Shown here in pieces: positions 3,873-43,658 of a stretch of 51,337 bases of DNA. The stretch is from contig CALCCA010000026.1 of assembly GCA_937899725.1 (NCBI GenBank), forward strand, positions 1-51,337, written 5' to 3'. The notes under the pieces are model-generated. The model did no database searches and was not told the origin of the DNA. It saw nothing but the letters and a program-made list of their open reading frames with translations. The position numbers and the translations under genes were made by a program. The stretch's first letter is position 1. Each line of letters opens with the position of its first letter. The DNA comes from an uncultured Halomicronema sp. Lineage in GTDB: Bacteria > Cyanobacteriota > Cyanobacteriia > Phormidesmidales > Phormidesmidaceae.

Positions 3873-5675
3873 ATGAGCAAGATTCTGGTCATCGAAGATA
3901 ACGAAGCCGCGAGAGAAAACATCAGTGACATTCTCCGACTAGAAGGCTTTGAACCCCTCGTCGCAACCAATGGTCAGCAGGGATTGGAGCTCGCTTTTCA
4001 GCACACTCCAGACTTGATCATTTGCGATGTGATGATGCCAAAGCTCAACGGTTATGAAGTTTTAGAGGCCCTCGGTAAAGACGAGCGACTCTCCACGATT
4101 CCCTTCATCTTTTTAACGGCTAAAGCAGCCCGATATGATGTGCGGCAAGGGATGACCCTCGGCTCCAGCGACTATCTCACCAAGCCATTTTCACCTTCTG
4201 AGTTGGTGGCGGCGATCAAAACTCAGCTCAAGCGCAAGGAAACGATCACGCAGAGCTATGCTCAACAGATTAACCATCTGCAGCGCAGCATTGATCAGAA
4301 TTCGCATACCGATGAGCTAACTCAGCTGCCTAACCAAGCTGCCCTCAGCCAAACGTTAGAGCAATATCTAACTGAAGACAAAGACTTTTCTCTATTTATT
4401 ATTTCGGTCGATCAGTTCAGCTTTTTGAGCAGCACCTTAAGTACTGCCGACACCGAAGAGCTGATTAAATTGATTGCCCAAAGAATTCAAAAAGTGTTTC
4501 CTCACTCGATGGCATCAGAAAGTCTAAAAGACACTTTTCGCATGGGGCAAAATCAATTCTCGGTCTTGACTGATCAGGTTGATCCAGACGGCGGGCAGCT
4601 ACCTCGTACGGCCTATCGGTTCCTCAATCTTTTGAGAGCGCCCTATATTCTCAACGGTAAAGCCGTCAACGTGACCACCAGTATTGGTATCGCTTCGACG
4701 ACCAACATCACGGATGCTTCGCGACAGGTTTCTAGAGTTGAGAGTCTACTGCAAGGGGCAAAAACTGCTCTTTATAAAGTCCAGCAAAAGGGCGGTAATG
4801 ATTACTGTTTCTATCGTCCTGAGATGATATTCAGTGCTTTTGAGCGGCTAGACGTTGAAAATGCCTTGTACTATGCGCTTCAGCAGGACGAACTGGAAGT
4901 TTTTTATCAGCCCCAAGTAGATATATCGGCAGGGTCCGTCGTGGGAGTCGAGGCGCTGCTGCGTTGGAAGAGCGCCCAACTCGGCTGGGTCTCACCCACT
5001 AAGTTCATTCCGATCGCTGAAGAAATCGGTCTGATCAATGACATTAGTAACTGGGTCTTGTGGCAAGCCTGTGAACAGGTCAAAAAATGGCAAAAGCTAA
5101 TGGTTAAACCCATTGGCGTCTCAGTGAATTTATCGGCAGTGCAGCTGAGTCAACCAGGGCTCTGTGAAACGGTCAGCAAAATTTTGCAAAAAACAGCAAT
5201 CGCACCTCATCTGCTATGCCTAGAAATCACTGAAAACGCCTTGATCAAAAACAAAGGCTACGCCATCAATATCTTGCAAGAGCTCAAAAAGATGGGGATT
5301 CGCATCGCGATCGATGATTTCGGCACTGGCTACTCGGGCTTGGGATATCTCAGCTCTTTTCCCTGCAACACCATCAAGCTTGATCGCATGTTTATTCAAG
5401 ATATTCATCAGCGATACTCTAACCAGAGAATCGTCTCAGCGATTATCAATATGAGTCATGAGCTTGAGCTAAAAGTAATTGCCGAAGGGGCAGAAACTCA
5501 AGACGAATTAGACTACCTCAAGCTGCAGGGATGTGACATTGTTCAAGGCTTTGTCCATTCCCGACCGATGCCGAGCAGCGATGTCACTAAGTTCATCCAA
5601 GCCACCACATCAGAACCGCTTGATAGCAATCCGGCACCAATCACTACCACCACTCGTGCTCTCCCCAGCGCTTGA
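3873..5675 (+). CDS. Response regulator with degenerate GGDEF and intact EAL domains
   Basis: The 600-residue protein has a receiver domain (about 1-122) with the acidic pocket at E8/D9, phospho-acceptor D52 in CDVMMP, T82 and K104. A GGDEF-type domain (about 140-315) follows. Its signature is replaced by RMGQNQF, so it has lost the residues needed to make cyclic-di-GMP. The EAL domain (about 330-575) keeps GVEALLRW, VNLSAVQLS, EITENAL, IDDFGTGYS, IKLD, AEGAET and QGF, the metal- and substrate-binding pattern of active phosphodiesterases. The best prediction is a cytoplasmic, phosphorylation-controlled c-di-GMP phosphodiesterase, with the GGDEF part as a possible GTP-binding regulator. AGGAG with a 9-nt spacer supports this start. 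The cognate kinase is unknown; kinases lie downstream. Confidence 0.9.
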   Translation: MSKILVIEDNEAARENISDILRLEGFEPLVATNGQQGLELAFQHTPDLIICDVMMPKLNGYEVLEALGKDERLSTIPFIFLTAKAARYDVRQGMTLGSSDYLTKPFSPSELVAAIKTQLKRKETITQSYAQQINHLQRSIDQNSHTDELTQLPNQAALSQTLEQYLTEDKDFSLFIISVDQFSFLSSTLSTADTEELIKLIAQRIQKVFPHSMASESLKDTFRMGQNQFSVLTDQVDPDGGQLPRTAYRFLNLLRAPYILNGKAVNVTTSIGIASTTNITDASRQVSRVESLLQGAKTALYKVQQKGGNDYCFYRPEMIFSAFERLDVENALYYALQQDELEVFYQPQVDISAGSVVGVEALLRWKSAQLGWVSPTKFIPIAEEIGLINDISNWVLWQACEQVKKWQKLMVKPIGVSVNLSAVQLSQPGLCETVSKILQKTAIAPHLLCLEITENALIKNKGYAINILQELKKMGIRIAIDDFGTGYSGLGYLSSFPCNTIKLDRMFIQDIHQRYSNQRIVSAIINMSHELELKVIAEGAETQDELDYLKLQGCDIVQGFVHSRPMPSSDVTKFIQATTSEPLDSNPAPITTTTRALPSA

Positions 5676-32546: not shown

Positions 32547-32600
32547 TCGTCTAGGCAAAGCGGTATTCTAAAAGCGCCTTTGAGGTTTAGGAGTAGGGCC

Positions 32601-33305
32601 ATGAGGTCAACTGCCCGCGATTCGTCTCACCTATTAACGCTGTTGCAATTGGCCAGTCCGGCCTTGCCGGTGGGAGCCTACAGCTATTCTGAGGGGATTG
32701 AAACCTTGGCCGCCCAAGGACTTGTGACCGACGGGACAACCCTCTTCCATTGGCTGGCTCAGGAACTCCAGGGCGGGGGCATTCGATTAGAAACGGCCCT
32801 GATGGGCTGGTGTTACACCGCCGCCCAACAGCCCCAGACTCAAGCAGACGCCGTGATTGACCGGTGGAATCAGTGGCTCTCAGCCTTTCGCGAAACCGAG
32901 GAGATGCGATCGCAGAGCTGGCAAATGGGGCGATCGCTGCTACGCCTCTTTAACGATATTGAACCCGCGTTGGCCCGCCAGTTGCCCCCCACCGCAACTC
33001 GTGAACACTGCAACTTCGCGATCGCCTACGGTCTGGTCACCCAGGCGTGGGAAATTCCGTTGGCGGATGCGAGTTTGGCGTTTTTGCACAGTTGGGCTGC
33101 TAATCTCGTCAGTGCCGCCGTGCGCAGCGTGCCTCTGGGCCAAACCGCAGGGCAGCGCCTGCTGCGGCAGCTGATCTCGCCAATCCAACAGGCTCAGGCC
33201 GAGATTGCCACCCTGACAGAAACCGACCTGATGGCCTGCAGCTGGGGCGTTACGCTCGCCAGTATGCAGCACGAAACCGAGTACAGCCGCCTGTTTCGGA
33301 GCTGA
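32601..33305 (+). CDS. ureF: Urease accessory protein UreF
   Basis: UreF, with UreD and UreG, forms the complex that inserts nickel and carbon dioxide into apo-urease. The protein is 234 residues from the ATG at 32601, which has AGGAG 7 nt upstream; a TTG seven codons earlier lacks one. The family pattern is clear: LLQLASPALPVGAYSYSEGIE, LETALMGWCYTAA, EEMRSQSWQMGRSLLRL, FAIAYGLVTQAWEIPL, AANLVSAAVRSVPLGQTAGQRLL. All-helical and cytoplasmic. ureG follows after about 140 bp. ureABC, ureD and ureE are not in the window. Confidence 0.93.
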   Translation: MRSTARDSSHLLTLLQLASPALPVGAYSYSEGIETLAAQGLVTDGTTLFHWLAQELQGGGIRLETALMGWCYTAAQQPQTQADAVIDRWNQWLSAFRETEEMRSQSWQMGRSLLRLFNDIEPALARQLPPTATREHCNFAIAYGLVTQAWEIPLADASLAFLHSWAANLVSAAVRSVPLGQTAGQRLLRQLISPIQQAQAEIATLTETDLMACSWGVTLASMQHETEYSRLFRS

Positions 33306-33444: not shown

Positions 33445-34116
33445 GTGGCAAAGCCTTTTCGTGTCGGGGTTGCAGGCCCCGTAGGATCTGGAAAAACAGC
33501 GCTGATTGAAGCCCTTTGCAAGGCTATGCATCACGACTATGGCTTAGCCGTGGTGACCAATGATATTTACACCCAAGAGGATGCGCAGTTTTTGGTGCGC
33601 CGCGCCGCCTTAGCGCAAGATCGCATCATTGGGGTCGAAACGGGCGGTTGTCCCCACTCAGCCATTCGCGATGACGCTTCGATCAATCTGGAAGCGATCG
33701 ATCGCCTGGTGCAGCAGTTTGCCCCCGACATCGTGTTTGTCGAAAGCGGCGGCGACAACCTGGCAGCCACCTTTAGCCCCGAACTGGTGGAGATGACGCT
33801 GTATGTCATTGATGTGGCGGCGGGCGACAAAATTCCCCGCAAGGGTGGCCCCGGCATCATGAAGTCAGACCTGCTGATTATCAACAAAATTGATCTCGCC
33901 CCCTACGTCGGCGCTGATCTAGCGGTGATGGAACGCGACGCCCACAAAATGAGAGGCGATCGCCCCTTTGTCTTTACAAACCTTAAAACCCAGTCAGGGC
34001 TCACAGCCATCATCGATGTTATTTGTCGCCAATACAAAGTGGGAGCCAGCCCAGCGGTAGCGAGCGCCGCGGCTGAATTTCCCCACGCGCATACCCACGC
34101 CCATCCCCCAGCTTAG
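33445..34116 (+). CDS. ureG: Urease accessory GTPase UreG
   Basis: UreG is the GTPase that delivers nickel to urease. The 223-residue protein shows the P-loop [28 protein letters not shown], the invariant nickel-binding Cys-Pro-His in [35 protein letters not shown] and the [13 protein letters not shown] guanine-specificity segment. A short histidine-rich tail (HAHTHAHPP), not essential in the family, could hold extra metal. The start codon is GTG at 33445 with GAGG upstream. A TATAAT box at 33396-33401 suggests an own promoter in addition to read-through from ureF. The urea transporter operon follows. Confidence 0.95.
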
Positions 34117-34514: not shown

Positions 34515-35843
34515 ATGACAAATCGATTTGGAAGACGGAAGTTTTTGCTGTACGGAGCCTCCACGATGGGGACAGCAATGCTGCTCAAGGCTTGTGGCGC
34601 TGCCCCTGATGATGCTGCCACCACCGAACCTGCCGAAGCCGAAGGCGAAGAAACCGCTGCTGCGGGTGGCGACGGTGAAACTATTAAAGTCGGCATTTTG
34701 CACTCTTTGAGCGGCACCATGGCGATTAGTGAAACCACCGTGGTCGATGCCGAAAAACTGGCGATCAAAGAAATCAACGCTGCCGGTGGCGTGCTCGGTC
34801 GGCAAATTGAAGCGATCGAAGAAGACGGCGCTTCTGACTGGCCCACTTTTGCGGAAAAAGCCGAAAAGCTGATCGATCAGGATGAAGTCGTCACCGTCTT
34901 TGGCTGTTGGACCTCAGCTAGCCGCAAAGCCGTGCTGCCGGTGTTTGAGTCGAAAGATCACATGCTCTGGTACCCCGTGCAGTACGAGGGCCAAGAATGT
35001 TCCAAAAACATTTTCTACACAGGGGCAGCGCCTAACCAGCAGATTGAGCCCGCTGTCGATTGGCTGTTGGAAAACAAAGGTACCGAGTTCTTCCTCGTCG
35101 GTTCTGACTATGTGTTCCCGCGGACGGCGAACAACATTATCAAAGAGCAACTGGCGGCTAACGGCGGGACCACCGTCGGCGAAGATTATTTGCCGTTGGG
35201 TAATACCGAAGTCACCCCGATTATTGCCAAAATTAGAGAAGCGCTGCCCGACGGTGGCATCATTTTTAACAGCTTAAACGGTGACAGCAACGTCGCTTTC
35301 TTTAAGCAGCTGCAGGGCGCGGGCATGACCCCAGATCTGTATCCCGTGATGTCAGTCAGTGTGGCCGAAGAAGAAGTACGCCAGATTGGGCCAGAGTTCC
35401 TCGTGGGTCACTACGCCGCTTGGAACTATTTCCAAACGGTGGAAAGCCCTGAGAATGAAAAGTGGGTCGCTGACTTCAAAGCCGAGTATGGGGACGATCG
35501 CGTGACCAATGACCCGATGGAAGCCGCTTACATCATGGTTTACCTGTGGAAGCAGGCGGTTGAGCAAGCAGGCACCACGGACATTGCGGCGGTACGCGAA
35601 GCCGCTTATGGTCAGGAGTTTGCCGCCCCGGAAGGGCCGGTGACGATGAATGCCAACCACCACATCTCCAAGACCGTCCGGATCGGTCAGGTGCGTGAGG
35701 ATGGGCTGTTTGACATTGTCTCTTCCACTGACGGTCCGATCGACCCGGTGCCGTGGAACCAGTACGTGGCTGAAACTAAGGGCTTTGCCTGTGACTGGTC
35801 TGACCCGGCCAAGGGTGAGAAGTACGAAACGGAAGGCGCTTAA
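34515..35843 (+). CDS. urtA: Urea ABC transporter substrate-binding lipoprotein
   Basis: UrtA captures urea in the periplasm for the UrtBCDE importer. The 442-residue precursor starts with a twin-arginine-like and lipobox leader ([11 protein letters not shown]...LLKAC, lipid-modified Cys near residue 27) and a low-complexity acidic linker. A type-I periplasmic fold of the LivJ/AmiC class follows (about 58-430, with [61 protein letters not shown]). These segments are diagnostic for UrtA among LivJ-type proteins. It is the first gene behind the NtcA promoter. A terminator-like hairpin follows it, so it may be expressed above the rest. Confidence 0.96.
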
Positions 35844-36353: not shown

Positions 36354-37526
36354 GTGATTGAGGGACTGATTAACGGTTTGTTTAACGGCATCAGTATTGG
36401 CGCAGTGCTGCTGATTGTCGCCTTAGGACTCGCGATCGTCTTTGGCCTGATGGGCGTGATTAACTTGGCCCACGGCGAACTAATGATGCTCGGGGCCTAC
36501 ACCACCTACGTGGTGCAAAACGGCGCCAAGGCCCTGGGAGAAGGCGCGCTAGAGTTTTATATTTTGGCAGCGCTGCCGCTCTCGTTTTTGGTGGCGGCGC
36601 TGGTGGGGCTAGCGCTAGAGCGCGGGGTGATTCGCCATTTGTATGGCCGCCCACTAGAAACGTTACTGGCAACCTGGGGCGTCAGCTTGATTTTGCGGCA
36701 GTTTGTGCGCAGTGTGAACTGGGCCATGATTGTCGGTTTAGGGCTTTTCTGTCTCTTGTTCTTTGGCGGCCGCTGGATTTTGCAACGACAAACCCAGTGG
36801 GAGCAGACGCGGCGGGTGGCGGCCCCCGTCATCTTGGCTCTGTCGAGCGCGATTGCCCTGGCCGCAGGCATTTTAATTAACCAAAACGGCGGTACCGCAC
36901 TGAGCCAGCCCTGGTTTGGTGCCCGCAATGTGGATGTTACTGCCCCTGGCTGGCTGCGTGGCGGGCTTTCTCTGGGCACGACGCTGCAGTTTCCCTACGC
37001 GCGGCTATTCATTATTGTGTTGACCATTCTGTGCCTGATCGGCGTCTATTGGTTTCTCAACGGCACCGCCTGGGGGTTACGCATGCGCTCCGTCACCCAA
37101 AACCGCAAGATGAGCGCCTGTTTAGGCATCCCTACCGATCGGGTGGACGCCCTCACCTTTGCGCTGGGGTCAGGCTTGGCAGGCATCGCCGGTTGTGCGG
37201 TAACGCTGCTGGGCTCGGTGGGGCCAAACCTGGGCGGCAACTACATTGTCGATGCCTTCATGGTGGTGGTGGTCGGCGGGGTTGGCAAGCTGGTCGGCAG
37301 CATCGTCGCTGCCCTGGTGATTGGCAGCATTACCTATCTGCTGGGCTCGGGCACATTAGCGCTGATCTTGCCACCGGCAGAAGCGTTGCAGCCCCTGGTG
37401 GATTTCTTTACCTTTTTTGCCACTACGAGCATGGCCAAGGTGATGGTATTTGCGTTGATTATCGCCTTTCTGCAGTGGAAACCCGCTGGCATGTTTCCGC
37501 AGAAGGGCCGTTCGGTGGAGGTTTAA
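36354..37526 (+). CDS. urtB: Urea ABC transporter permease UrtB
   Basis: UrtB is one of the two channel subunits in the inner membrane. The 390-residue protein has the LivH-type layout of about eight to ten helices. It opens with FNGISIGAVLLIVALGLAIVFGLMGVINLAHGE (its first 20 residues are typical of the family), followed by MMLGAYTTYVVQ. LETLLATWGVSLILRQ and VQ-like NRKMSACLGI also fit, as do FALGSGLAGIAGC and VVVVGGVGKLVGS, the segment contacting the ATPase. It starts at a GTG with AAGG upstream. urtC begins 9 bp after its stop. Confidence 0.95.
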   Translation: MIEGLINGLFNGISIGAVLLIVALGLAIVFGLMGVINLAHGELMMLGAYTTYVVQNGAKALGEGALEFYILAALPLSFLVAALVGLALERGVIRHLYGRPLETLLATWGVSLILRQFVRSVNWAMIVGLGLFCLLFFGGRWILQRQTQWEQTRRVAAPVILALSSAIALAAGILINQNGGTALSQPWFGARNVDVTAPGWLRGGLSLGTTLQFPYARLFIIVLTILCLIGVYWFLNGTAWGLRMRSVTQNRKMSACLGIPTDRVDALTFALGSGLAGIAGCAVTLLGSVGPNLGGNYIVDAFMVVVVGGVGKLVGSIVAALVIGSITYLLGSGTLALILPPAEALQPLVDFFTFFATTSMAKVMVFALIIAFLQWKPAGMFPQKGRSVEV

Positions 37527-37535
37527 CAAACAACT

Positions 37536-38720
37536 ATGGCAACCGAAACAGCGATGCGTCCCCGGCAGGAAATTAAAGCCCAGCAGTCGCAGCAGCGTAA
37601 GCTCGAAATCATCGGCATCATTGCCTTTGTCGTGCTCATGGCAGTGGTGCTGCCCTTGCTGCTGAGCGGCTTTCGTTTAGGTCTGCTGGGTCGATTTTTA
37701 TCCCTGGCGATCGTGGCGCTGGGCATTGACTTAATCTGGGGCTTCACCGGCCTGCTCAGCCTCGGGCACGGCATTTTCTTTGCCCTTGGCGGCTATGCCT
37801 TTGCCATGTTTTTGCAGCTCAACAGTTTGGGCGAAGGTCAAATTCCGGAGTTTTTTGGCCTCTACGGCGTCGATACCCTGCCCTGGTTTTGGGGCCCCTT
37901 TGCGTCCCTGCCCTTTACGCTACTGGCCATTTTTATCCTGCCCGCGATCGTGGCGGGGCTGCTAGGCTATCTGGTTTTTCGCAACCGGATTCGCGGCGTT
38001 TATTTTTCCATCCTGACGCAAGCGGCGCTGGTGGTCTTTTTTAACCTGTTCAACGGCCAGCAGAAATGGATTAACGGCACCAACGGCCTTAAAACCGACA
38101 CCAGCGTCTTTTTCGGACAACAGGTGGGCAGCGAGTCGATGCAGATGACGTTTTATCTGATTACGGTCGCTGTGCTGGTGGTGATGTATCTGCTCTGTCG
38201 CTGGCTCACTAGCGGTCGCTTTGGGCGGCTATTGGTCGCCATTCGCGATGACGAAAATCGGGTGCGATTCTCGGGCTATGACCCTACCGGCTTTAAGGTG
38301 TTGGTGTTTGCGGTGTCGGGGGCGATCGCCGGTATTGCCGGAGCGCTCTACACCGTACAGTCGGGCATCGTCTCGCCGCAGTTTATGGATATTGCCTTCT
38401 CGATTGAGATGGTGATTTGGGTCGCGGTCGGCGGTCGGGCCACTCTGGTCGGCGCGATTCTCGGGGCACTACTGGTGAATTGGGCCAGGGCACTACTGAG
38501 CGAGAGCTTTCCTGAAGTGTGGCTGTTCTTTCAGGGGGCGCTGTTCCTTTTAGTGGTGACGGCCCTGCCCGATGGCCTGGTCGGCTGGTGCCGCCAGCAG
38601 GCACCCCAACAGGTGCGATCGCTGATCAGCAAACCCGAACCCTTGCTCACCTATCCCCAAATTGAGCTGGACCCCGATATTCAAAAAGAACGCCAGGAAA
38701 TTGGCGATCGCGGGGCTTAG
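37536..38720 (+). CDS. urtC: Urea ABC transporter permease UrtC
   Basis: UrtC is the second, LivM-type channel subunit. The 394-residue protein has a basic, glutamine-rich cytoplasmic N-terminus (about 1-27) and then about eight to ten helices. Typical segments include DLIWGFTGLLSLGHGIFFALGGYA, RIRGVYFSILTQAALVVFF, NRVRFSGYDPTGFKVLVFA and MVIWVAVGGRATLVGAILGALLV. The last is the coupling region to the ATPase. It lies 9 bp after urtB and is certainly co-transcribed. The following gap to urtD is 160 bp and contains a long inverted repeat. Confidence 0.95.
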   Translation: MATETAMRPRQEIKAQQSQQRKLEIIGIIAFVVLMAVVLPLLLSGFRLGLLGRFLSLAIVALGIDLIWGFTGLLSLGHGIFFALGGYAFAMFLQLNSLGEGQIPEFFGLYGVDTLPWFWGPFASLPFTLLAIFILPAIVAGLLGYLVFRNRIRGVYFSILTQAALVVFFNLFNGQQKWINGTNGLKTDTSVFFGQQVGSESMQMTFYLITVAVLVVMYLLCRWLTSGRFGRLLVAIRDDENRVRFSGYDPTGFKVLVFAVSGAIAGIAGALYTVQSGIVSPQFMDIAFSIEMVIWVAVGGRATLVGAILGALLVNWARALLSESFPEVWLFFQGALFLLVVTALPDGLVGWCRQQAPQQVRSLISKPEPLLTYPQIELDPDIQKERQEIGDRGA

Positions 38721-38752
38721 CGATCGGCTTCTCCACCATCCGCCCGCCGTAC

Positions 38753-38840
38753 GGGCGAGGCATTGCGGCAACATCTTTTTGGGATCTACCCGCAAGGTTG
38801 TACCGCAATGCCTCGCCCCTCCAGAATGCCTCGCCCCTCC
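38753..38840. repeat. 16-bp inverted repeat plus tandem GC-rich unit between urtC and urtD
   Basis: GGGCGAGGCATTGCGG (38753-38768) pairs perfectly with CCGCAATGCCTCGCCC (38803-38818), with AAC/GTT extending the stem. AATGCCTCGCCCCTCC then occurs twice in tandem (38807-38822 and 38825-38840). It may be a palindromic element or an RNA structure modulating urtD expression. Confidence 0.65.
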
Positions 38841-38880
38841 GCGATCGCCCCTGCCAATTCTCTTCCTACCCCACCCACCC

Positions 38881-40002
38881 ATGACTGCACTGCTCGAAAT
38901 CGAAAACGTCACCGTCAGCTTTGACGGTTTCAAAGCGCTCAACGATCTCAACTTCGCCATGAACGAAGGCGAACTGCGCGTCATCATTGGCCCCAACGGC
39001 GCGGGCAAAACCACCTTTTTAGATGTCATTACCGGCAAAGTGCAGCCCACCACCGGCCAGGCCCGCTTCCAAGGCAAAGACCTCAAAAAACAGGCCGAAC
39101 ATACCATCGCCCGGTTGGGCATTGGCCGCAAGTTTCAAACGCCACGCGTTTACCTCAACCTTACCCCCCGCGAGAATCTGGAACTCTCCTGCAACCGCGA
39201 TAAAAACGTGTTTGCCACCCTGTTCAAAAAAACGCCGACTGCCGAAAAGCGCACCGTAGGCGGCCTGCTCGAAACCATTGGGTTGGATCACAAGGCCGAT
39301 GTGCCCGCTGCGCTACTTTCCCACGGCGAAAAGCAATGGTTAGAAATTGGCATGTTAGTCGCGCAGTCGCCGGATCTCTTGCTGGTCGATGAACCGGTGG
39401 CCGGGCTCACCGACGAAGAAACCGAGCAAACCGGCAACTTGCTCATCTCCCTGGCGCAGAGCCATTCCATCATTGTGATTGAGCATGATATGGAATTTGT
39501 GCGCCAAATTGCCCGCCAGGTCACTGTTTTGCATGAAGGGTCGGTGCTCTGCGAAGGCACAATGGATGAAGTGCAAAACGATCCTCGCGTGATTGAGGTC
39601 TACCTGGGTCAAGAAACCCACGTGACTCCGGAACAAATGTTGCTGCTGCGCATTGCGGCGACCATGGCCTGGGCGGACAACAATTTTGATCCCGTGCAGC
39701 AAGCCGTGATTTTAGAGCGGCTGAGCCAGCAATTTTCCTCAGATTCAGAGGAACGAGCCCAGCTCAAAGCAGACCTGAATAATCTGCTGGGCAAAAACAT
39801 TCCCCTAGAAGAATTGGTGCCGCAACTGACCACCGATGCCCAACGCGAACAAGCGCTGATGCTGAGCTATGAGGTGATTAGCTCAAACCAGATCAATCCT
39901 ATTGAAGCTCGCCTGTATCAACAATTAGTGACTCTACTGGGGTTGCCCCCTGAGACCGTAAGTCGTCTTGAAGCTGCCGCTCTGGAGAACTTGCCATCAT
40001 GA
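38881..40002 (+). CDS. urtD: Urea ABC transporter ATPase UrtD with C-terminal TerB-like domain
   Basis: UrtD is one of the two cytoplasmic ATPases of the urea importer. From the ATG at 38881 the protein has 373 residues; longer starts would run into urtC and translate the inverted repeat. Residues 1-244 are a LivG-type ATPase: Walker A GPNGAGKTT (37-45), signature LSHGEKQWLEIG (146-157), Walker B LLLVDEP (166-172) and H-loop H202. The LivG-like core is about 250 residues, but here about 120 more follow (249-373). They resemble a TerB/DUF533-type helical domain, with MLLLRIAATMAWADNNFDP, then LSYEVISSNQINPIEARLYQ. TerB domains are linked to tellurite and stress responses and bind metal through acidic residues. 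A regulatory role is inference. The stop overlaps the urtE start (ATGA). Confidence 0.93.
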   Translation: MTALLEIENVTVSFDGFKALNDLNFAMNEGELRVIIGPNGAGKTTFLDVITGKVQPTTGQARFQGKDLKKQAEHTIARLGIGRKFQTPRVYLNLTPRENLELSCNRDKNVFATLFKKTPTAEKRTVGGLLETIGLDHKADVPAALLSHGEKQWLEIGMLVAQSPDLLLVDEPVAGLTDEETEQTGNLLISLAQSHSIIVIEHDMEFVRQIARQVTVLHEGSVLCEGTMDEVQNDPRVIEVYLGQETHVTPEQMLLLRIAATMAWADNNFDPVQQAVILERLSQQFSSDSEERAQLKADLNNLLGKNIPLEELVPQLTTDAQREQALMLSYEVISSNQINPIEARLYQQLVTLLGLPPETVSRLEAAALENLPS

Positions 40003-40751
40003 CCCGCACCCAACCCGCTTCGCCCGAGGCCCCTGCAGTCACAGCGCCCATGCTGAAAGTCTCTGGACTCAATTTTTTCTACGGAGAGAGCCACATTCTG
40101 CGCAATGTCGATATGACCGTACCCAAAGGGCAAATGGTGTGCCTGATCGGGCGCAACGGCGTCGGCAAAACGACGCTGCTGAATAACGTCATGGGACTGC
40201 TCTCACCCCGTACCGGCGATATTTACTACGAGGGGCAGTCGGTGCTCAAGGTGTCACCCGATCAGCGCGCCCGCCGGGGCATCGGTTATGTACCCCAGGG
40301 CCGCGAGATTATTCCGCGCCTGACCGTGAAGGAAAATCTAATTATTGGGCAAGAAGCGCTGGGCGATCGCGGTCAAAAATCTGCTGGCGTTCCCGCCGAA
40401 ATCTTTGAGCTGTTTCCCGTTTTAGAGACCATGCTGAGCCGCATGGGTGGTGACTTGAGCGGCGGTCAACAGCAGCAGTTGGCGATCGCCCGTGCCCTGA
40501 TGGGTCGGCCTAAACTCCTGGTGCTCGACGAGCCCACCGAAGGTATTCAACCCTCCATCATTTTGGATATTGAAGCCGCCGTGCGCCGCATTATCGCCAC
40601 CACCGGCATTTCCGTTCTATTGGTCGAGCAACACCTGCATTTTGTCCGCCAGGCTGATTTTTACTACGCCATGCAAAAAGGCGGTATCGTTGCCTCTGGC
40701 CCCACAGCAGAACTCAGCAACGCCGTTATTCAAGAGTTCCTGGCGGTGTAG
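39999..40751 (+). CDS. urtE: Urea ABC transporter ATPase UrtE
   Basis: UrtE is the second, LivF-type ATPase that pairs with UrtD. The 250-residue protein has Walker A IGRNGVGKTTLL, Q-loop YVPQGREI, signature LSGGQQQQLAIARAL, Walker B LLVLDEPTEGIQPS and an H-loop in VEQHLHF. The GIQPSII segment is typical of UrtE/LivF. Its ATG overlaps the urtD stop by four bases, implying coupled translation. It is the last gene of the operon; a weak terminator candidate follows. Confidence 0.96.
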   Translation: MTRTQPASPEAPAVTAPMLKVSGLNFFYGESHILRNVDMTVPKGQMVCLIGRNGVGKTTLLNNVMGLLSPRTGDIYYEGQSVLKVSPDQRARRGIGYVPQGREIIPRLTVKENLIIGQEALGDRGQKSAGVPAEIFELFPVLETMLSRMGGDLSGGQQQQLAIARALMGRPKLLVLDEPTEGIQPSIILDIEAAVRRIIATTGISVLLVEQHLHFVRQADFYYAMQKGGIVASGPTAELSNAVIQEFLAV

Positions 40752-41571: not shown

Positions 41572-42192
41572 TCAGGCTTCCAGAATACCACCGGTCACGA
41601 CTGCACCATCGAGACAGGCCCCCTCCCACACGGCGCCATCTCCCTCAGCACAAACGAGATTGGCCTCGGTCAAGTTAACCCCCCGCAAAATCGTGCCCGA
41701 GAGATTGACCTCTTCTAAATTAGCTTTAGAAAGATTAGCGCCCGATAAATTGGCATGACTGAAATCAGCTTGCTGTAGGTTAGTGCCGCTCAGGTTAGCG
41801 CCGCGTAAATCAGCCCCGCGAAAGTCGGTACTGCTCAGATCAGTCTGACTAAACATCGCACCCGCCATAAAAGCACCGGCGAAGCTGGTTTGGTGGAACT
41901 GGGCTTCAATAAAAACGCAGCCCTGCAGTTCGGCATTGCGGAAATCGGCCTCTCGCAGGTCAGCCCCCCCCAAGTTGGCCCCCCGCAGGTTACTTCTAAG
42001 GTTGCTGTGTTGCAGGTTAGCGCCGGCCAAATTAGCCCCGGCCAGATTGGCTTTGGCGAAATCGACGGTGGCTAATTGGGCTCCTGATAAGTCTACGCCC
42101 GGGAGGTGAGCTGCTTTCAGCGTCTTATATTGGCCGTTGCGAATTGCCGCAATATCGAGGCTAGATGGGGTCAGTTCGGGAGAGGCATTCAT
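41572..42192 (-). CDS. Pentapeptide-repeat protein
   Basis: The 206-residue protein is built almost entirely of A(D/N)LXX pentapeptides (about residues 28-200). They fold as a right-handed quadrilateral beta-helix of roughly 30 units. Residues near 65-70 (HSNLRSNLRGANL) contain one four-residue unit, so the register slips by one there and resumes. There is no signal peptide, so it is probably cytoplasmic; a function cannot be inferred from the fold. Its ATG overlaps the stop of the upstream DICT/HD gene by four bases (ATGA), indicating coupled translation and a possible shared role. Confidence 0.88.
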   Translation of the reverse strand: MNASPELTPSSLDIAAIRNGQYKTLKAAHLPGVDLSGAQLATVDFAKANLAGANLAGANLQHSNLRSNLRGANLGGADLREADFRNAELQGCVFIEAQFHQTSFAGAFMAGAMFSQTDLSSTDFRGADLRGANLSGTNLQQADFSHANLSGANLSKANLEEVNLSGTILRGVNLTEANLVCAEGDGAVWEGACLDGAVVTGGILEA

Positions 42193-43658
42193 GAGGCAAG
42201 GTCTGAGCTAGCGCTTTTAGGGGAGGAAGATTCTTCGAGCCAGACCTTGGGCAGTTGACTGGGACGGTCCGGCAGTTGCATCATGCCAATTTCGGTCAGC
42301 CGCACCACTGTGGTTAAATGCTCCAACAAGGTGGGGTCAAAACGAGTGCCGCTGTGCTGCTGACATTTTTCGAGGGCATCCCCCAAGGCCAGCGCGGGTC
42401 GATTCCCGCGCGACTGGGTAAGTTCTTGAAAATGGGCCGAGAGCCGCAAAACGCGCGACTCCAGCGGAATCGCTTCCCCGCGGAGACCGTCGGGCCGACC
42501 ACTGCCATCCCAATTTTCCAGCTGATGGTTGATGATCGCTCGCACGGGTTCCAGTTCAGCCATCGCGGCGAGCAGCTGAGCGCCGAGGTAGGCGCGATTG
42601 TTCCACGTCACCAAGTCGGACTCTCTTAACTGGCTGGCGGGCCGTTCAAACACATCGATGGGAGCTTCGGCCAAGCCAATGCGAAACAGCAGGCCGGCCA
42701 GGCGTAACCGCCGTAAACTGAGCGTCGGCAAGTCCAAAATTTGCCCAAGAGTTTCGGCCAGGGCGGCAACCTGTAAAGACGCGAGGGGATTATCGCGATC
42801 ACGCTCATCAACGCGCTGAGCCATCCGCAGAAACGCCTGCAGCTTGTTCGCCGTCAGATTGCGATTGATGCGCAGAGCATGCCCTTCTAATTCCCACAGC
42901 TCACGGGCTTGCCGGCTGGCCGTGATCAGATGCTCTTGACTGTCCTGCAGATAATTGACGATGCGTGAGACAACGCTGGTGAGGTCAACCGGCACGGTGC
43001 TGGGAGCCGCACTCATGTGCTTCTGCATCGTGTGCAAGCGCTCAACTAAAGCTTCGTTATAGGGGCGCAGACGCTCAATCAAAATGGTGGCGGCAGCTTC
43101 TACAGCCGCGCGATCAAAGGTCCACAGGCCATAAAATTTACGCTCGACGTCACTGCGCGGCTGGTTGTCGGCCTGATATTCCTCTGCTGACAGCTCGTGG
43201 CACAACACCATGGCCGTGTAGCCCGGAGCCACAATGATCAAATTCCACTCATTGACCAAGCTATCGTCGGGGTCTAGCTCAATCAAAGAGACGTTGGGCA
43301 GTTGCCCGGTCGGATGAGTTTCAAAGCCACTATCGGCGCAGGCCGAAACAGCAACATGTTCCGACTGCTGGGCAATGTCTAAGTAGCGGTCAGCCTCTTG
43401 CAGATACCACTTACCTTCTTGAAAGGTCACCAATACCAGTGGCTGCTGGTCGGCATGCTCGGCAGTACTCTTGAGAATATGGTCTTCTAAAGCATGGCAG
43501 AGCGCAATCAGCGTGTTTTTAAAGTAAACGCGATAGCTAGAGGGCAACTGCCCGGCGGGTAATGCGGCCTTCAGCTGATTAAGTGTAGATTCTGAGTCCA
43601 TCCCAATTGGTGCCGCATGGTTAAAACGTGAGTGATCGACGTCGTTAGTCTTAAGCAA
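42189..43658 (-). CDS. DICT sensory domain protein with degenerate HD-GYP domain
   Basis: The 489-residue soluble protein starts with a DICT-type sensor (about 35-220, RVYFKNTLIALCHALED, FQEGKWYLQEADRY, ERKFYGLWTFDRAAVE). A helical linker (about 220-285) follows. An HD-GYP-like domain (about 290-450) still has NWDGSGRPDGLRGEAIPLESRVLRLS but reads FRIG where the HD metal pair should be, and GRP for GYP. Cyclic-di-GMP hydrolysis is therefore unlikely; the domain may bind ligands or partners. A second ATG (codon 20) is a possible start. DICT domains often accompany light or c-di-GMP signalling in cyanobacteria. It heads an operon with the overlapping pentapeptide gene. Confidence 0.85.
   Translation of the reverse strand: MLKTNDVDHSRFNHAAPIGMDSESTLNQLKAALPAGQLPSSYRVYFKNTLIALCHALEDHILKSTAEHADQQPLVLVTFQEGKWYLQEADRYLDIAQQSEHVAVSACADSGFETHPTGQLPNVSLIELDPDDSLVNEWNLIIVAPGYTAMVLCHELSAEEYQADNQPRSDVERKFYGLWTFDRAAVEAAATILIERLRPYNEALVERLHTMQKHMSAAPSTVPVDLTSVVSRIVNYLQDSQEHLITASRQARELWELEGHALRINRNLTANKLQAFLRMAQRVDERDRDNPLASLQVAALAETLGQILDLPTLSLRRLRLAGLLFRIGLAEAPIDVFERPASQLRESDLVTWNNRAYLGAQLLAAMAELEPVRAIINHQLENWDGSGRPDGLRGEAIPLESRVLRLSAHFQELTQSRGNRPALALGDALEKCQQHSGTRFDPTLLEHLTTVVRLTEIGMMQLPDRPSQLPKVWLEESSSPKSASSDLAS

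Follow-up and report, generated by a model that had tools for sequence, protein, structure and literature searches.

The urea transporter operon and its long urtD

The stretch of DNA analyzed here, referred to as the window, is the 51,337 nucleotides of contig CALCCA010000026.1 from an uncultured Halomicronema sp. It carries a complete urtABCDE around urtD, with two urease accessory genes upstream of urtA. UrtA, UrtB, UrtC, and UrtE each exceed the cut-off of their own family model. The features are as follows.

32580-33305, plus strand: ureF, urease accessory gene, upstream of urtA (Pfam UreF, 145.9 bits)
33445-34116, plus strand: ureG, urease accessory gene, upstream of urtA (CobW/HypB/UreG domain, 138.8 bits)
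34515-35843, plus strand: urtA, urea-binding protein (TIGR03407, 614.6 bits; cut-off, 492.75)
36354-37526, plus strand: urtB, permease (TIGR03409, 366.6 bits; cut-off, 250.3)
37536-38720, plus strand: urtC, permease (TIGR03408, 446.2 bits; cut-off, 296.2)
38881-40002, plus strand: urtD, encoding UrtD plus tail, 373 amino acids in a single open frame
38881-39606, plus strand: UrtD ATPase core, residues 1-242, ending in VYLG (TIGR03411; Pfam ABC_tran and BCA_ABC_TP_C)
39607-39627, plus strand: short linker, residues 243-249 (low pLDDT; constant spacing to the invariant Asp of the domain in 55/55 fused proteins)
39628-39999, plus strand: predicted TerB-like seven-helix domain, residues 250-373 (Pfam TerB, AF2 model, and structure comparison)
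39999-40751, plus strand: urtE (TIGR03410, 316.5 bits; cut-off, 285.8)

The UrtD family model TIGR03411 matched residues 4-244 at 382.9 bits (cut-off, 304.1), and this score marks the 373-amino-acid protein as a true UrtD, which supplies the ATPase of the urea importer UrtABCDE. The start of urtE overlaps the stop of urtD by 4 bases (ATGA). A preliminary description of the locus had proposed a complete ATPase up to residue 244 followed by extra residues in frame, and both the span of the model match and the 373-amino-acid frame bear this out. The tail start that it proposed, 39628, corresponds to residue 250, where the first helix predicted for the second domain begins, and the motifs that it quoted (AWADNNFDP and NPIEARLYQ) were confirmed in the translation.

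Three further observations concern the surroundings of urtD. UrtB (36354-37526) matches its family model as two stretches, which suggests an insertion in the permease. Between urtC and urtD (38748-38841) lies a hairpin-forming repeat with 25-nucleotide arms that are 84% complementary, together with a direct 16-nucleotide repeat; since three more copies occur in the genome (72 to 75% identity), it is probably a small repeat element. Near the operon, on the minus strand (42192-43658), is a protein with DICT, CHASE6_C, and HD_5 domains, which is possibly a sensory phosphodiesterase.

The tail is predicted to be a TerB-like domain

The isolated tail matched Pfam TerB (PF05099) at 26.0 bits, above the gathering cut-off of 24.4 (E value of 1.2e-5), and scored 25.4 bits in the genome search. 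When the whole protein was scanned, TerB scored 22.9 bits, which is under the cut-off. DUF533 was matched by the isolated tail at 24.1 bits, under its cut-off of 29.6. The comparison was extended to 46 related domains (32 fused to UrtD and 14 free; alignment A3), obtained by thinning 75 sequences at 85% identity. At an E value of ≤0.01, TerB was matched by 39 of the 46 and DUF533 by 23.

An AF2 model of the tail, built with the 46-domain alignment, comprised seven helices with a mean pLDDT of 90.9 and a pTM of 0.85; the remaining four models had mean pLDDTs of 79.8 to 82.4. PDB chains were ranked against the model with Foldseek and realigned with VIA-align. The best entries were a TerB protein of Nostoc punctiforme (2ou3_A; Z of 12.5, rmsd of 4.8, 124 aligned residues) and a TerB family protein of Porphyromonas gingivalis (2h5n_B; Z of 10.0, rmsd of 3.3, 112 aligned residues). 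Cyclins were the next-best entries (Z of 6.1), and this likeness was judged to be a common helical arrangement. With Foldseek alone, the sole high-probability entry was 2h5n (probability of 1.00 but an E value of 0.018); a sequence profile search found the same structure at an E value of 0.0025. Because helical bundles can reach high Z scores by chance, the TerB identity leans on sequence and fold together. The proposal of a TerB-like C-terminal domain on UrtD is thus upheld by the sequence profile and by the predicted fold, the fold check suggested with it (AF2 and Foldseek) having returned both a TerB match and a defined seven-helix fold.

In a model of the full-length protein, two domains were placed with uncertain relative position (pTM of 0.62), and pLDDT fell below 50 at residues 244-246 (the numbering in this model is one lower, with Met1 omitted). 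The 50 structural matches listed for it were ABC ATPases, aligned mostly over the core, so that the tail was hardly probed. Taken from profile and models, the tail is a separate TerB-like, all-helical domain fused to UrtD via a short linker.

Could the long frame be an artefact, a read-through, or a mis-joined gene? One of the 45 loci recovered from named genomes (described below), the metagenome-assembled L095, encodes the core and the domain in separate reading frames and was counted in favor of this reading. Against it stand 55 fused sequences with a constant junction, low dN/dS values, a confidently predicted fold, and the published mass of the Synechocystis protein Sll0764 (41.19 kDa), which fits the long form. 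We regard an artefact as extremely improbable. L095 itself comes from a member of the Leptolyngbyaceae (position 4265 to the end of the sequence), and its frame split may stem from an error in sequencing, or the gene may truly be divided.

Extended UrtD is a minority form in cyanobacteria

In order to determine how widespread the fusion is, we used 292 cyanobacterial genomes spread evenly over the phylum, 103 of which contained an UrtD-like match at an E value of ≤1e-70. The fusion is the minority form: in 15 of these 103 genomes, the match reached query residue 361 or beyond (one truncated match, in G022, is not classifiable, and three of the nonfused matches are divergent, at 46 to 47% identity). 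Short UrtD proteins are 246 to 269 amino acids long in the 54 loci that were fully read (the truncated L150 being excluded); the remaining genomes were judged from the match alone. The count of UrtD lengths that the preliminary description had suggested therefore places the fusion in cyanobacteria as a patchy trait (15/103) and not as a common feature of UrtD there.

Each of the 15 fused genomes had a single match at this threshold when the best 6 candidates per genome were scored, so the extended UrtD is probably the working subunit. A short UrtD occurs in the same family as the window (L018; core 87.5% identical). At that locus (G215, 2341-2952), no urtE was detected within 1.5 kb downstream of urtD, and an ORF that by eye resembles a protein kinase lies there instead.

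Named genomes were also scanned with five fused tails as queries, a search that names carriers and gives no proportions. Among the 45 loci retrieved, 41 were fused in frame, 1 was out of frame (L095), 1 was a free domain (L108), and 2 were distant relatives. Carriers include Nodosilinea, Leptolyngbya, Phormidium tenue, Adonisia, Picosynechococcus PCC 7117, Xenococcus, Geminocystis, and Spirulina; an uncultured Halomicronema comes closest to the window, at 90% in the tail. No match to the tail alone was found in plasmids, and none of the 678 plasmid records with a whole-protein match covered 80% of the long form. Three Rhizobium matches seemed to reach residue 295; the one that was inspected (H4) is a short UrtD of 267 amino acids.

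A link between the fusion and a different operon layout was considered and set aside, there being no clear difference. Where enough sequence was available, urtC was upstream in 45/54 fused and 51/54 short loci (absent in 9/54 and 3/54, respectively), and urtE was within 600 bases downstream in 42/52 fused and 45/51 short loci.

Close relatives of the laboratory model Synechocystis are among the carriers, and strain PCC 6803 itself also appears to be one. The urtD primers given in the partial text of PMC6603209, compared with our loci L020 and L021, matched both perfectly at the 5' end, differed from them at 3 and 2 positions, respectively, at the 3' end, and span 373 residues. The calculated masses of the L020 and L021 proteins are 41.27 and 41.31 kDa, and those of two short forms are 27.3 to 27.7 kDa; the mass reported for Sll0764 in the same partial text is 41.19 kDa. 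Published primers and mass thus indicate that Synechocystis UrtD has the tail. The tail is not discussed in that partial text, and the paper nowhere uses the word "extension."

In a literature search over titles and abstract openings, with few subscription papers covered, we found no description of an UrtD-TerB fusion, although domain databases may list the architecture. The words "C-terminal" and "TerB" are both absent from a genomics paper on cyanobacterial urea transport.

The domain is conserved but has lost acidic positions

The strength of selection was estimated from 16 pairs of sequences. One pair had a saturated dS; among the 15 measurable pairs, the tail gave dN/dS values of 0.035 to 0.174 in 14, and the outlier (0.463) was a pair of very low divergence (dS of 0.04). 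Free copies of the domain gave 0.063 to 0.347 (six pairs). The UrtD core is tighter, with dN/dS of ≤0.040 (16 pairs). Judged by these substitution rates, the TerB-like tail is under purifying selection and is thus maintained.

The structure 2h5n contains an acidic pattern, D-G-x-x-x-x-x-E, twice; the motif was taken from this structure and is not required by the Pfam model. The paired units may have a metal-binding role. All four acidic positions are filled in 14/14 free copies (the second unit having Glu in place of Asp) and in 5/32 fused domains; at the second acidic position, Glu occurs in 14/14 free copies and an acid in 5/32 fused domains. At least one is lost in the other 27 of the 32, the window's included, and two are lost in 17/32. 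Of the four, the first Asp and the second Glu remain in the tail in the window; it is one of 17/32 fused domains that retain just the first Asp and the second acid. The first Asp, D266, is invariant in 46/46 aligned domains, and E342 in the second unit is Glu in 30/32 fused and 14/14 free domains; in L016, L019, and L020, the placement of the second unit in the alignment is uncertain. In addition, 26/32 fused domains lack any part of a 7-residue loop that the free copies have. The erosion of the acidic positions and the absence of the loop, as read from the alignment, mean that the domain has changed after fusion.

These patterns bear on the suggestion of the preliminary description that the domain may adjust urea uptake to a cellular signal. 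Made specific, the tail would be a metal or stress sensor, and a metal ion bound to it would switch urea import according to the metal or stress state of the cell. The TerB relationship by profile and fold speaks for this, as do the invariance of D266, the near invariance of E342, and the retention of all four acids in five fused domains. The loss of at least one acid in 27/32 fused domains, when every free copy keeps four, speaks against it. So does the gene neighborhood, since a Pfam scan of 15 proteins of the window (the 5 urt products and 10 more) detected no terC- or terD-type genes. If the acidic residues bind metal, the fused domain would mostly have given that role up, and we consider the sensor reading unlikely.

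Free TerB relatives and the origin of the fusion

Among free proteins, the closest relatives of the tail are cyanobacterial members of the TerB family, about 160 amino acids in length. One of them (L005; 161 amino acids) is encoded in the genome of the window and shares 46% identity with the tail across 127 columns. Its gene (G000:C125, 1459-1944) lies downstream of a gene for a CRP-family regulator (cNMP_binding and HTH_Crp_2 domains). A tail-profile search of the 292 genomes gave matches in 40. The matches in ORFs of more than 350 residues numbered 15, all in the 15 fused-UrtD genomes, and the others lay in ORFs of 137 to 246 residues. By hand count, free-TerB matches above 130 bits occurred in 21/103 genomes with an UrtD match and in 2/189 without one, a distribution that may reflect shared ancestry rather than function. 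Members of a single ORF family recur upstream of the free copy, at 10/20 loci; the one that was scanned (L048) is an M61 peptidase, and the free TerB gene and an M61-type neighbor possibly form a two-gene unit. No urea genes were recognized among the recurring neighbors of the 20 free-copy loci, nearly all of which had flanks of ≤1.5 kb.

A domain tree was built from 55 fused and 20 free sequences. A single branch divides the two groups (support of 96/90), although the alignment has just 132 columns, the branches are long, and no root was inferred. The spacing at the junction, from the end of VYLG to the invariant Asp, is identical in 55/55 fused proteins, as expected from one fusion. On trees of the UrtD core, the fused state requires ten or nine changes, four of which are forced by well-supported branches, and a single clade of fused cores was rejected (p-AU of 3.2e-7, with 72 of the 110 rows used). 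No remnant of the domain was found downstream of urtD in 54/55 short-labeled loci, the 55th being the out-of-frame L095; L024, L028, and L033 had fewer than 170 bases downstream. Any losses proposed from the trees would therefore have left no trace.

Trees that group L008, L017, or L104 plus L105 with the free copies stay unrejected (p of 0.133, 0.405, and 0.235, respectively). These are also the four of 32 fused domains that keep the full 7-residue loop present in 14/14 free copies, and for both reasons several fusions remain possible. On the sequence evidence, the domain most likely joined UrtD once, early in the cyanobacteria, and was afterwards lost repeatedly or spread through recombination; separate fusions in several events are possible, and, with the tree unrooted, a free gene might conceivably have split off from a fused one.

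A putative regulatory or docking module of the urea importer

We propose that the tail is a putative accessory module of the urea importer, regulatory or docking in function, and hold this with roughly even confidence. The domain would sit at the cytoplasmic face of the transporter, outside the transport cycle itself, and would bind a partner, either a protein or a small ligand, and in this way modulate transport or dock the importer. Because most sampled cyanobacterial UrtD proteins have no tail, the tail is not needed for urea import generally; this distribution and the known control by PII through UrtE were counted in favor of an accessory role. The C-terminal domains of other importer ATPases, NrtC and MetN, are regulatory. 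A regulatory C-terminal domain of NrtC is also mentioned in the partial text of PMC6603209. According to the same text, PII of Synechocystis binds UrtE in two-hybrid assays and gives no signal for UrtD, and urea uptake loses its inhibition by ammonium when PII is missing. TerB is reported to associate with the inner side of the membrane and to interact with a number of proteins in the cytoplasm (PMC5822837, partial text, citing others).

The location reported for TerB would also suit a scaffold for urease, in which the domain would hold urease, or the proteins accessory to it, at the importer so that urea is hydrolyzed on entry. The urease complex copurified with N-terminally tagged PII in Synechocystis, a strain with tailed UrtD, and channeling was raised by the authors (PMC6603209, partial text); in the window, urtA is preceded by ureF and ureG. 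However, the bait in that copurification was PII, not UrtD, and we judge a urease scaffold to be distinctly unlikely. A broader version would make the tail a docking hub that ties the importer to urease, with import and hydrolysis in one membrane-attached complex. The domain would then have been attached once or several times, would have given up its acidic sites, and would have been discarded where coupling was unneeded. To us this version is likewise distinctly unlikely.

Finally, the tail may carry no signal and serve folding or stability, stabilizing either UrtD itself or the interface that it forms with UrtE, UrtB, or UrtC. Purifying selection with faster change than in the core would fit a structural appendage, and repeated absence of the tail would fit dispensability. 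Nevertheless, the short UrtD of the same family as the window (L018), with its closely similar core, manages without a tail, and a purely stabilizing role seems unlikely.

Many cyanobacteria can draw their nitrogen from urea. A domain borne on UrtD would, in a model strain, add a separate point of control or docking beside PII-UrtE. Since the tail is indicated in Synechocystis PCC 6803 and is absent in many relatives, its role is open to direct testing. Through the fusion to UrtD, the poorly understood TerB domain also gains a simple transport readout.

Comparison with known systems

In its core, its position in the operon, and its family score, the protein resembles the short UrtD of cyanobacteria and rhizobia (TIGR03411). 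The usual form, however, stops a few residues past VYLG, whereas the form in the window adds 124 residues. The tail resembles TerB (PF05099/COG3793; 2ou3 and 2h5n) in profile score and predicted fold but differs in being fused to an ABC ATPase, in the acidic pattern that is incomplete in 27/32 fused domains, and in having no ter neighbors among the scanned proteins of the window. The free cyanobacterial TerB proteins, such as L005, are the sole other rows in the domain tree; unlike the fused domain, they are encoded by a separate gene, have the 7-residue loop, and mostly have a longer C-terminal end. Like NrtC and MetN, the extended UrtD has an extra domain after an importer ATPase core, with regulation by the UrtD tail being putative; the C-terminal domains of those two proteins presumably belong to families other than that of the TerB-like tail. 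An extra C-terminal domain on such ATPases was thus already known, and the variant described here draws that domain from an unusual family, TerB.
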